This document shows positions 49,382-52,222 of a stretch of 64,000 nucleotides of DNA, piece after piece. Below the pieces are notes generated by a model that did no database searches, was not told where the DNA came from, and was given only the letters and a program-made list of their open reading frames with translations. The stretch spans positions 248,001 through 312,000 of the forward strand of contig NZ_RCVQ01000003.1 in NCBI RefSeq assembly GCF_016107285.1, written 5' to 3'. Origin of the DNA: Roseomonas sp. KE0001 (GTDB lineage Bacteria > Pseudomonadota > Alphaproteobacteria > Acetobacterales > Acetobacteraceae). Made by a program: the position numbers and the translations under genes. How positions within the stretch are numbered: the first letter of the stretch is position 1; each line of letters opens with the position of its first letter.

Positions 49382-50130
49382 CAGGACAGCCAGAGACGGG
49401 GCGGCCGCTCGCCGGGCAGGTCGCCCTCATCACCGGCGCCAGCCGTGGCATCGGTGCCGCCACCGCCATCGAGCTGGCCCGGCTGGGGGCGCATTGCGTG
49501 CTGGTGGCGCGCACCCAGGGGGGGCTGGAGGAGACCGACGACGCGATCCGGGCGCTGGGCGGCGGGTCCACCCTGCTGCCCTTCGACCTGGTGAAGCAGG
49601 CCGACAAGATCGACGTCATCGGCCCCTCCCTGGTCGAGCGCTTCGGCCGGCTCGACATCCTGGTGCACAATGCCGGGGCGCTCGGCAGCCTGACGCCGGT
49701 GGCGCATATCCAGCCGCGCGACTGGGCGGATGTGGTCGGCGTCAACCTGACGGCGAGCTGGCGGCTGATCCGCACCTGCGACCCGCCGCTGCGCGCCGCG
49801 CCCGCCGGCCGGGCCGTCTTCGTCACCACCGGGCGGGTACGGCGGCCCAAGCCCTACTGGGGCGCCTATGGCGCGACCAAGGCGGGGATGGAGCATCTGG
49901 TCCTGACCTGGGCACGGGAGGTGGAGCACACCCCCCTGCGCGTGAACCTCTTCGACCCTGATGTGGTGGCGACCAAGATGCGCGCCCAGGCCATGCCGGG
50001 GGAGGACCCCGCCAGCATCGTCCAGCCCGCCGAGGTGGCGCCCGCGCTCGCCGCGCTCTGCCGGCCGGAGGAGGCACGGCATGGCAGCACCGTGGTTTTC
50101 GAGCGTCAGGCGGCACAGGCCGCCTCTTGA
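49378..50130 (+). CDS. Short-chain dehydrogenase/reductase
   Basis: 250-residue Rossmann-fold SDR. Coenzyme motif TGASRGIGAA (about residues 18-27), NNAG-type HNAGALGS, and active-site Tyr-x3-Lys as YGATKAGM (about 160). A serine normally preceding it appears as TTGRVRRPKPYWGAYGATK. GTG 49378 overlaps the purF stop (GTGA). It is classed with the YciK-like SDRs often next to purF in alphaproteobacteria; substrate unknown. Transcription may be ended before the asd leader. Confidence 0.85.
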   Translation: MTGQPETGRPLAGQVALITGASRGIGAATAIELARLGAHCVLVARTQGGLEETDDAIRALGGGSTLLPFDLVKQADKIDVIGPSLVERFGRLDILVHNAGALGSLTPVAHIQPRDWADVVGVNLTASWRLIRTCDPPLRAAPAGRAVFVTTGRVRRPKPYWGAYGATKAGMEHLVLTWAREVEHTPLRVNLFDPDVVATKMRAQAMPGEDPASIVQPAEVAPALAALCRPEEARHGSTVVFERQAAQAAS

Positions 50131-50161
50131 CGGCGCCGTGCCGGCCGGCAAAATCCCTCGC

Positions 50162-50254
50162 ATGTCCGTGACGATCACCCTCAAGCGCATTACCAAGACG
50201 ACCGCTCCGGCGGGGCGTCCTCTGGTGGCTGCGCGGACCGACACCGCGGCATAG
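50162..50254 (+). CDS. Probable regulatory leader peptide for asd (Thr/Ile/Lys-rich)
   Basis: A 30-codon reading frame beginning MSVTITLKRITKTT. Nine of residues 4-14 are threonine, isoleucine or lysine, the end products whose pathways pass through the downstream enzyme. Two tandem Thr codons (13-14, 50198-50203) lie immediately before one strand of a 12-bp antiterminator. This is the arrangement of amino-acid attenuators such as the thr leader. The ATG lacks a clear Shine-Dalgarno sequence. It could also be a chance frame, but composition and placement argue otherwise. Confidence 0.55.
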   Translation: MSVTITLKRITKTTAPAGRPLVAARTDTAA

Positions 50255-50289
50255 CACCAGAAGGCCCCGCCGGAGACGGACGGGGCCTT
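50205..50289 (+). promoter_or_regulatory. Candidate transcription attenuator upstream of asd
   Basis: Antiterminator: CTCCGGCGGGGC (50205-50216) is exactly complementary to GCCCCGCCGGAG (50264-50275). Terminator-like: AAGGCCCCG (50261-50269) is exactly complementary to CGGGGCCTT (50281-50289). The two share 50264-50269 and are mutually exclusive. The first strand overlaps codons 15-19 of the leader peptide. The T-run after the terminator is poor (TTG), which weakens the model. Confidence 0.55.
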
Positions 50290-50340
50290 GCCGGACGGAA
50301 CCGGCACCCCGTCTCCTCCGGCCTCCATGGAAGAGACATC

Positions 50341-51402
50341 ATGCTGTCCCTCGAAGAACCCGCCGAAGCCGCCTTCCGCCAGGTCGAGGCCGCCGCGCCC
50401 GTGGTGGCCATCGTCGGCGCCACCGGCGCCGTCGGTGTCGAGCTGCTGCACTGCCTGGAGAGCCGGGGCTTCCCGCTCGGCGGGCTGAAGCTGCTGGCCT
50501 CACCGCGCTCGGCCGGGCGGACGCTCGACTTCAAGGGCCGGCCCGTCACCGTCGAGGCGCTGACCGAGGACAGTTTCGCGGGCGTCGACATCGCGCTCTT
50601 CTCCGCCGGCTCCGGCATCTCCAAGCGCTTCGCCGCCGCCGCGGTGAAGGCGGGCGCCCTGGTGGTGGACAATTCCTCGGCCTTCCGCATGGAGCCCGAG
50701 GTGCCGCTGGTGGTGCCGGAAGTGAATGCGGCCGCCCTGGCCGGGCATCACGGCATCGTCGCCAACCCGAACTGCGTCGCCGCCATCGCCACCGTCGCCC
50801 TGGCGCCGCTGCACCGCGCCCACCCCATCCGCCGACTGACGGCCGCGACCTATCAGGCGGCCTCCGGCGCCGGCGCCGCGGCGATGGAGGAGCTGCGCGA
50901 GGCCACCGCCGCCTATCTCCGGGGCGAGAGCTTCGAGCCCAAGGTCCTGCCGCACCCCTACGCCTTCAACCTGTTCAGCCACAACGCCGAGATGGACCCG
51001 GAGAGTGGCTATAATGGCGAGGAGACCAAGGTGGTGGCGGAGACCCGCCGGATCCTCGGCGCGCCCGAGCTGCCGATCGGCATCACCTGCATCCGCGTGC
51101 CCGTGCTGCGCGCGCATGCCATGGCGCTGACCGTGGAGTTCGACGAGGTGGTGACGCCGGAGGAGGCGCGCGAACTGCTGGCCGCCGCCCCGGGCCTGCG
51201 CCTGGTGGACGACCGCGCCGCCAACCACTTCCCGATGCCCTCCGAGGCCTCGGGCCAGGACGATGTGCTGGTGGGCCGCATCCGCCGCGACATCGGCGAC
51301 CCCTCGGGCCGTTCGCTCGCCCTGTTCGTGGCCGGCGACCAGTTGCTGAAGGGCGCGGCGCTGAACGCGGTGCAGATCGCGGAACTGCTGCTGAAGCGGT
51401 AG
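50341..51402 (+). CDS. asd: Aspartate-semialdehyde dehydrogenase
   Basis: 353-residue NADP-dependent enzyme reducing aspartyl phosphate to the semialdehyde on the way to lysine/DAP, threonine, isoleucine and methionine. Motifs are GATGAVGVELLHCLESRGFP (nucleotide loop), SAGSGISKRFA, NSSAFRM, the nucleophile cysteine in VANPNCVAAIATVAL (about residue 143) and the later GDQLLKGAALNAVQIAE. Length is normal. GGAAGAGAC precedes ATG 50341. It is preceded by a probable leader-peptide attenuator and followed by a hairpin. Confidence 0.95.
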   Translation: MLSLEEPAEAAFRQVEAAAPVVAIVGATGAVGVELLHCLESRGFPLGGLKLLASPRSAGRTLDFKGRPVTVEALTEDSFAGVDIALFSAGSGISKRFAAAAVKAGALVVDNSSAFRMEPEVPLVVPEVNAAALAGHHGIVANPNCVAAIATVALAPLHRAHPIRRLTAATYQAASGAGAAAMEELREATAAYLRGESFEPKVLPHPYAFNLFSHNAEMDPESGYNGEETKVVAETRRILGAPELPIGITCIRVPVLRAHAMALTVEFDEVVTPEEARELLAAAPGLRLVDDRAANHFPMPSEASGQDDVLVGRIRRDIGDPSGRSLALFVAGDQLLKGAALNAVQIAELLLKR

Positions 51403-51448: not shown

Positions 51449-52222
51449 TTACTTCCGCAATTCCATCCCGATCGGCCCCTCGCGCTCGCCGCGCGCGAAC
51501 TGGTCCACCATGGCATTGCCGGTCTGGCCCAGCGTCGCGGCGGGGCCGGTCCAGACGATGCGGCCCTTGTGGATCATCGCCGCCGTGTCGCCGATGCGCC
51601 GTGCGCTGGCCATGTCGTGGGTGATGGAGACGGCGGTCGCGCCCAGCTTCTTCACGGTGTCCACGATCAGCCCGTCGATCACGGCGCCCATGATCGGGTC
51701 GAGGCCGGTGGTCGGCTCGTCGAAGAAGATGATGTCCGGCCGCGCCGCGATGGCGCGCGCCAGGCCGACGCGCTTCTGCATGCCCCCCGAGAGCTCGGCG
51801 GGCGAGAGATCGCCGACGCTGCCGTCCAGCCCGACCTGGGCCAGGATCTCCGCCGCCTTGCCGCGGGCCTCGGCCCGGGTGACGCGCTTCTGCGCCAGCA
51901 GCTTGAAGCAGACATTCTCCCAGACCGGCAGGCTGTCGAACAGCGCCGCGTTCTGGAACAGCATGCCGATGCGGTCGTTCAGCGCCTCGCGCTCGCGCCG
52001 GGGCATGGTCAGGACATCGTGCCCGTCGATCTCGATCGAGCCGGAATCCGGCGTGATCAGGCCGAGGATGCACTTGATGGTGACGGACTTGCCTGAGCCC
52101 GAGCCGCCCAGGATCACCATGCTCTGCCCGGCCCCGACATCGAGATCGACGCCGTCCAGCACCTTCTTGGCGCCGAAGCTCTTGGTCAGGCCGCGCAGGC
52201 GGATTTTCGGGGTGCTGCTCAT
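51449..52222 (-). CDS. mlaF: Phospholipid ABC transporter ATP-binding protein (MlaF-like)
   Basis: 257-residue ATPase: Walker A GGSGSGKSVTIKCILGL (about residue 38), Q-loop LFQNAALFDSLPVWEN, signature LSGGMQKRVGLARAI, Walker B DIIFFDEPTTGLDP and H-loop THDMASA. The lysine-rich VGLARAIAARP and DSLPVWENVCF phrases are typical of MlaF rather than sugar importers. It drives retrograde phospholipid transport from the outer membrane with MlaE. It overlaps the mlaE stop by 4 bp. Confidence 0.9.
   Translation of the reverse strand: MSSTPKIRLRGLTKSFGAKKVLDGVDLDVGAGQSMVILGGSGSGKSVTIKCILGLITPDSGSIEIDGHDVLTMPRREREALNDRIGMLFQNAALFDSLPVWENVCFKLLAQKRVTRAEARGKAAEILAQVGLDGSVGDLSPAELSGGMQKRVGLARAIAARPDIIFFDEPTTGLDPIMGAVIDGLIVDTVKKLGATAVSITHDMASARRIGDTAAMIHKGRIVWTGPAATLGQTGNAMVDQFARGEREGPIGMELRK

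Follow-up and report, generated by a model that had tools for sequence, protein, structure and literature searches.

A ribosome-mediated attenuator probably (we put the probability at about 0.8) precedes asd, the gene for aspartate-semialdehyde dehydrogenase, in the 64,000-nucleotide stretch of Roseomonas sp. KE0001 DNA analysed here (the window), and it would switch on this second asd copy when charged tRNA for threonine, and probably for lysine, methionine or isoleucine, is short. The branch at which Asd acts leads to lysine, threonine, methionine and isoleucine as well as to the diaminopimelate of the cell wall. An initial annotation of the locus had predicted a leader-peptide attenuator upstream of asd, and this prediction is supported by the reading frame, by its Thr and Lys codons and by alternative pairings that co-evolve in relatives. 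The comparative support shown below consists of a conserved frame and conserved codons and of four RNA pairings (1:2, 2:3, 3:4 and 4:5, after the strands involved) that co-evolve. That the leader-controlled asd is a second copy is a fact that the initial annotation did not contain.

The asd gene occupies positions 50341–51402 of the forward strand and is one of two copies in the genome; its product scores 377.9 bits against TIGR01296 (cutoff 324.2), and the other copy likewise scores above this cutoff. Residues C145, Q172 and H259, which we take to be catalytic, are invariant across six aligned Asd proteins, and the closest named relatives in an Asd protein scan are Pseudoroseomonas and Roseomonas. 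The next gene-like ORF after asd (51449–52222) lies on the opposite strand. Upstream of asd, a promoter scan found a sigma-70-like site on the forward strand (50127–50154; -35 TTGACG at 50127–50132, -10 CAAAAT at 50149–50154), that is, one site at the locus vs. a mean of 0.0 in shuffled sequences. The spacing of this promoter predicts a transcription start at, or adjoining, the ATG of a leader ORF that can be read directly on the same strand at 50163–50255 (MSVTITLKRITKTTAPAGRPLVAARTDTAA; ATG at 50163, stop codon TAG at 50253–50255). The leader of close relatives (e.g., L113 and L003) stops approximately five codons earlier. As the initial annotation stated, the leader contains the stretch TITLKRITKTT, with five Thr, two Ile and two Lys. 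The tandem Thr codons (codons 13 and 14, 50199–50204) follow a Lys codon, and the resulting AAG ACG ACC (50196–50204), which homologue comparison marks as the proposed stall site, lies just 5' of strand 1, which starts at 50205.

Five strands can be distinguished on the forward strand between the tandem Thr codons and asd. Strand 1 (50205–50227; pairing search, swap test and synonymous recoding test) lies within the leader ORF. Strand 2 (50255–50275; pairing search, alignment and swap test) can pair with strand 1 or with strand 3 (50279–50289; alignment A1), which in turn is a partner of strand 2, in a terminator-like stem, or of strand 4. Strand 4 (CCCCGTCTC, 50307–50315) can pair with strand 3 or with strand 5 (GGAAGAGAC, 50329–50337), which contains the Shine-Dalgarno region of asd (both from alignment A1 and the swap test). 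Right after the tandem Thr codons, CTCCGGCGGGGC (50205–50216) is the perfect 12-nt complement of 50264–50275, as had been reported, and pairing 1:2 can be extended to 50227/50255. The competing 9-bp terminator-like stem was also recovered by the pairing search (50261–50269/50281–50289). The Shine-Dalgarno hairpin 4:5 and its anti-sequestering partner 3:4, which co-evolve, go beyond the three strands considered initially. The fold of 50131–50345 is better than that of 200 of 200 dinucleotide shuffles (z = -4.6).

The two soft points already conceded, a weak T-run and a missing Shine-Dalgarno sequence, are real. No intrinsic terminator was found at the window locus by consensus scan, and no U-tract follows the 2:3 stem, in which two T close the stem's own 3' arm and none occurs in the next 8 nt; direct reading of the locus revealed no Shine-Dalgarno sequence at the leader ATG. 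With no U-tract terminator, the element of the window genus is not classed here as a canonical transcription attenuator. The proposal that 2:3 acts as a terminator stands only in part: the stem co-evolves, and at least five T are present near its end in 18 of 81 homologues, but in the window genus it is not a canonical terminator. Where the T-run is missing, the co-evolving hairpin over the asd Shine-Dalgarno sequence may be the output. Neither the window nor any of 16 related loci matched an Rfam model (Thr_leader, T-box, lysine riboswitch and others) at its gathering score; when matches of E up to 1 were allowed, the region 50100–50400 matched RsmY alone, on the opposite strand and at chance level.

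Within this context, the switch might operate as follows. The mRNA would begin at or next to the leader AUG, and the leader would be translated without a Shine-Dalgarno sequence, from a presumably leaderless start. With ample amino acids, the ribosome would pass Lys-Thr-Thr and cover strand 1, whereupon 2:3 would form, leaving strand 4 available to strand 5 in a hairpin that covers the asd Shine-Dalgarno sequence; this would be the OFF state, if the direction of control is as we infer. A ribosome stalled in the Thr/Lys/Ile/Met stretch would allow strand 1 to take strand 2; the stall could lie as far as the first tandem Thr codon in the window model and would mostly precede it in homologues. 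Once 1:2 had formed, strand 3 would pair with strand 4, and both 2:3 and 4:5 would be excluded (ON). The dominant output would presumably be termination in lineages with a U-tract and Shine-Dalgarno sequestration, or another step, in the window genus.

These states were modelled by folding the RNA with the ribosome-covered bases unpaired (counted from the first A-site base, the footprint was assumed to reach 15 nt in the 5' and 14 nt in the 3' direction). In the window, 2:3 has a modelled probability of 0.08 when the first tandem Thr codon occupies the A-site, 0.34 for the second and 0.98 for the next codon (Ala), and that of 3:4 falls correspondingly from 0.92 through 0.66 to 0.02; 4:5 reaches 0.83 at the second codon past the tandem Thr codons. 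Across the 81 homologues, the mean modelled probability of 2:3 rises from 0.46–0.48 ahead of the Lys codon to 0.58 at that codon, to 0.67 and then 0.74 at the two tandem Thr codons and to 0.79 past them, so that it changes mainly at or before the Lys codon and little on the tandem Thr codons. In the model, 2:3 is more probable beyond the tandem Thr codons than on them in 57/81 homologues, and more probable beyond than before them in 61/81. A stall at the tandem Thr codons, as first proposed, gives a clear ON state in the window model, but the homologue averages are already at 0.67–0.74 at these codons. Stalling may therefore have to come sooner, with a role for the preceding Thr, Ile or Met codons, and an earlier stall in the Thr/Lys/Ile/Met stretch gives the clearer modelled ON state in most homologues; these averages have slightly lowered our confidence in the attenuator. 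Without a ribosome, 1:2 forms in the window model (0.97), and the OFF state would thus require active translation of the leader. When the ribosome is placed at the window strain's late stop codon, 3:4 is predicted rather than 2:3. Modelled exposure of the asd Shine-Dalgarno sequence hardly changes in the window (0.16–0.37 throughout); the homologue mean is 0.34 vs. 0.30, and exposure is higher in the stalled state in 50–52 of 81.

The homologues come from several searches. An Asd protein scan of named genomes gave 80 loci (the best of 204), and in this set a candidate leader precedes asd everywhere except at L050 and L110, which had little or no upstream sequence; examples are MFANLTTKTTMKTTADAGRFWVRAR from Neorhizobium galegae, MSNMMTKTMTKMTTAQAGECLAWAHRS from Loktanella and MTAVMTIIMTTLKTTRRGGASTGACMV from Phenylobacterium. 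A DNA search of 299 family genomes returned upstream regions repeating a frame like IKRITKTTAPAGRPLVAAR. From 135 loci with an asd match, 99 distinct leader segments were obtained, of which 81 were used after segments shorter than 110 nt and near-identical ones were dropped; these homologues are mutually related, and counts out of 81 are not independent trials. It was also observed that Asd proteins approximately 80% identical to that of the window occur in scattered genera of other orders (loci L031–L110, among the matches listed). Gene and leader may have moved together between lineages.

At each locus, the ORF with the highest content of Thr, Lys, Ile, Met and Asn was taken as the leader, and its composition is thus partly built in; under the same picking rule, at least three Thr and at least one Lys within the first 18 residues were found in 77/81 native leaders vs. 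60/1620 dinucleotide shuffles. Up to Lys-Thr-Thr, Thr makes up 37% of leader residues vs. 4.2% in Asd (8.8-fold), Lys 16% vs. 1.4% (11-fold), and Met and Ile are enriched 4.4-fold and 1.9-fold over the 81 homologues; beyond this site, none of the four is enriched. The site was defined as the last Lys before Thr, Lys, Met or Asn within the first 18 residues, which makes its Lys a matter of definition, and the occurrence of KTT in 59 and of TT in 73 of 81 leaders was counted independently of this rule. Its codons vary synonymously (AAG/AAA, ACG/ACC/ACT). Fewer than three Thr occur in four of the 81 leaders, one of which has no Thr at all. By composition and conservation, then, a short ORF rich in codons for pathway products precedes asd. 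Thr, Lys, Met and Ile are all products of the pathway downstream of Asd. The initial reading placed the stall at Thr codons; the leader composition suggests that Thr and Lys are sensed together, with Met and Ile in addition. In 58/81 homologues, a TTG hexamer has its first base between -38 and -35 relative to the leader ATG. A Shine-Dalgarno-like word (AGGA, GGAG, GAGG or AAGG) lies 5' of the leader ATG in 8/81, vs. 73/81 for the asd ATG, where GAGA was also allowed and the stretch was slightly longer. The leader ORF is thus probably leaderless, with an mRNA starting at its AUG, and the missing Shine-Dalgarno sequence need not be a weakness; leaderless mRNAs are described as common in Caulobacter in the available part of PMC4117421. 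A separate observation concerns the word CATAG/CATAA 3' of strand 1 (50251–50255 in the window): in 8/81 homologues it provides the leader stop, and in 19/81 it comes no more than 40 nt after an earlier stop.

Co-evolution was assessed in alignment A1, which comprises 45 hand-picked sequences (41 nearer ones minus L072, L077, L078 and L079, plus eight of 48 farther ones), and by alignment-free comparisons. Helix 2:3 is paired in 92.5% of cells and shows two-sided changes at four of its pairs; the paired share for helix 4:5 is 74.0%. For the two together, neither the covariation score nor the number of paired cells was reached by any of 500 shuffles, and four of five measures exceeded the shuffles, with one not doing so (272/500 as high). 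Helix 3:4 is paired in 91.9% of cells and helix 1:2 in 86.8% (the part inner to the GC block of strand 2) and 69.0% (outer part). For 1:2 and 3:4 together, the covariation score was matched by 5/500 shuffles and the paired cells by 0/500, but two of the five measures are unexceptional (207/500 and 131/500 as high), one is weak (30/500), and two-sided changes are at least as numerous in slid versions. In the alignment-free swap test, native duplexes exceed the mean of species-swapped ones in 69/81 homologues for 1:2, 63/81 for 3:4 and 64/81 for 4:5, vs. 35/81, 37/81 and 37/81 for the control pairings 1:3, 2:4 and 1:5. Furthermore, in 78/81 the native codons of strand 1 give a stronger pairing with strand 2 than synonymous recodings do on average. 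The initial annotation had proposed that relatives be examined for the frame and the alternative pairings, and the outcome favours its prediction: the frame and the Thr/Lys codons are conserved, and the mutually exclusive pairings are maintained by co-evolution, more weakly in the alignment counts for 1:2 and 3:4. An RNAalifold consensus on A1, which returned only four pairs, probably because of gaps and of the conflict between alternative pairings, was replaced by named structures and swap tests.

Within Acetobacteraceae, an Asd match at E 1e-80 or better is present in 88 of 299 genomes, and 38 of the 88 carry the asd type of the window (at least 65% identity). The covariance model R1 matches directly upstream of this gene in 37 of the 38; in the remaining genome (G094), leader and gene start are split onto another contig. 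At least 21 of the 38 genomes contributed sequences to R1, and the other 17 are independent matches. One genome beyond the 38 (G212) has an R1 match before an asd fragment. The other asd type is also found in 36 of the 38, the window genome included (that of G007 is a contig-end fragment), and G059 and G129 have one asd only. The element recurs across the class Alphaproteobacteria, and two asd genes were found in all 19 class genomes tested, which had been chosen for R1 lying before an asd. In the window genome, the other asd (45% identity; G000:C34:332264) lies near sdhC- and sdhD-like genes, and no leader was seen by eye in the 330 nt upstream of its match. The idea that every asd type has the leader was rejected. 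Twenty upstream regions were fetched, 18 of them of a type with approximately 50% identity; apart from L155, whose region did not reach the gene start, these 18 were inspected by eye, and none of the 17 showed a Thr/Lys-rich leader. The remaining two were L159 (G007), of the leader type with a Thr-poor leader, and L160 (G094), which was cut off. The window genome's own dapA has no comparable leader just upstream, as judged by eye, and its hom appears to follow an aminotransferase gene.

Similar leaders occur at other genes. In the 299 family genomes, R1 gave 59 matches in 54 genomes: 39 before asd, ten before dapA-like genes, six before other genes and four weak matches that were not fetched. 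The ten family dapA leaders (L192–L200 and L204) have Ser-Lys-Lys, or in one case (L198) Ser-Lys-Asn, before strand 1 and a similar hairpin; four of them start with GTG, by eye, the product at L193 scores above the dapA cutoff, and all ten genomes hold at least one more dapA (33–37% identity). Among 385 class genomes, 38, including that of the window, had R1 matches, 48 in all, and inspection of every match placed 22 before asd (two by eye), ten before a short thrS (L222, L224, L235, L239–L242, L250, L253 and L254), four before dapA-like genes and 12 before other or unclear genes. Seven of the ten thrS assignments are backed by TIGR00418, and those of L250, L253 and L254 were made by eye; the short thrS begins at model position 160–170 of 565, and all seven checked genomes have a full-length thrS elsewhere. 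A run of at least three Thr is present in nine of the ten thrS leaders, on the R1 scaffold. It is conceivable, at somewhat less than even odds, that the spare asd, dapA and short thrS genes of Alphaproteobacteria are each under a leaderless, modular leader-peptide switch with a common scaffold, whose codons 5' of strand 1 would specify the amino acid sensed (Thr plus Lys at asd, Lys at dapA and Thr at thrS), and that they would serve as starvation-induced backup isozymes, partly by Shine-Dalgarno release. This reading has been lowered because none of the four class-level dapA loci, which belong to other families, has a Lys-Lys leader; L249 and L252 have a single Lys, and no leader ORF was found for L245 and L256. 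Among the remaining R1 matches, L203 (about 150–380) shows a leader with a run of five Arg codons before an argD-like gene (acetylornithine aminotransferase, by eye). Short leader ORFs with no clear cognate amino acid accompany the matches before methyltransferase-like genes (L191, L205) and acetyltransferase-like genes (L202, L258), again by eye.

Several other explanations of the asd leader should be considered. The element could be a purely transcriptional three-strand attenuator, with 2:3 as terminator, 1:2 as antiterminator and 3:4 and 4:5 incidental. The 18 homologues whose best 8-nt stretch close to the 2:3 end contains at least five T, textbook cases such as L140 and L133 among them, would fit such a device; however, two homologues have four T and 61, including the window strain, have at most three, and 3:4 and 4:5 co-evolve in both the T-rich (at least five) and the T-poor (at most three) group, which makes this explanation unlikely. 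Given this co-evolution in both groups, the Shine-Dalgarno hairpin does not simply replace a terminator that has been lost. It is far less probable still that the stem merely terminates the upstream oxidoreductase gene and that the asd promoter lies further down: short DNA matches to the stem region do exist in genomes outside the 38 (e.g., G088 and G020), but a promoter-like site lies between the two genes, strand 1 is part of a conserved ORF, and the sequence 5' of the promoter differs among relatives, by eye.

Two further explanations retain the leader ORF and change its role. The leader might be a small protein with its own function, as for S. meliloti peTrpL, with RNA structure secondary; the S. 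meliloti SEP5 ORF is indeed translated, and its tagged form is visible on blots (PMC10117765, available part). Nonetheless, the part after Lys-Thr-Thr varies widely in length and sequence across homologues and follows the RNA pairing, as the recoding comparison indicates, which leaves this view very improbable. Equally hard to credit is a leader that senses ribosome-targeting antibiotics or a general slowdown of translation rather than amino acids: antibiotic-sensing bacterial uORFs are known (PMC12121999, as far as that text was available), but the codons found enriched fit the pathway and vary from one target gene to another, being Lys-Lys at family dapA and Thr at thrS. Ribosome-mediated attenuation responding to amino acid supply is the reading we prefer. 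A widespread attenuator before a second asd, with similar ones at dapA and thrS, would show how these bacteria keep spare enzymes in reserve, and the three kinds of leader offer naturally occurring exchanges of the sensed codon within a single scaffold.

Among known systems, the E. coli thr operon leader (thrL; Rfam Thr_leader) has a Thr-rich peptide and alternative RNA pairings, features shared by the asd leader. thrL controls thrABC, has Ile as its second residue and a canonical U-tract, whereas the window leader precedes asd and gives no gathering-score match in Rfam. E. coli asd itself reportedly lacks a typical attenuation signal (Haziza and co-workers, 1982). In Bacillus subtilis, thrZ encodes a starvation-controlled second threonyl-tRNA synthetase; the analogy concerns the thrS loci, which resemble it in being second threonyl-tRNA synthetase genes, and T-box control is where thrZ differs. 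No description of an asd attenuator across alphaproteobacteria was found in the literature searched, which contained few subscription papers and no supplementary files; the term "asd" is absent from PMC2965389, PMC3766115 and PMC8632094, and in the available part of PMC4117421 it stands for anti-Shine-Dalgarno (12 of 26 places). The uORFC-8-2 motif before cysS in Rhodobacterales, a predicted ribosome-mediated attenuator in the part of PMC8632094 available, shares tandem cognate codons with the asd leader and differs in its Cys codons, its target gene and its restriction to one order. The S. meliloti trpL (rnTrpL) ORF starts at its AUG (PMC10117765, available part) and is thus, as predicted for the asd leader, a leaderless alphaproteobacterial leader ORF; it differs in being the trpE leader of a tryptophan attenuator that also yields a dual-function sRNA. 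A parallel in codons is SEP5 of S. meliloti, a small ORF that contains six Thr codons and three Lys codons and lies in the 5'-UTR of a gene called "aspartate dehydrogenase", whose translation was detected by Ribo-seq and Western blot and which, in the available part of its 2023 description, is conserved only in Sinorhizobium and is "possibly a leader peptide" (PMC10117765). It is likely that SEP5 is the asd leader of S. meliloti. The suggestion made for SEP5 is thus prior art for a Thr/Lys leader; its account, in the same part of the source, includes no RNA mechanism, class-wide spread or link to a second copy (PMC10117765), and the second-copy link is new here.
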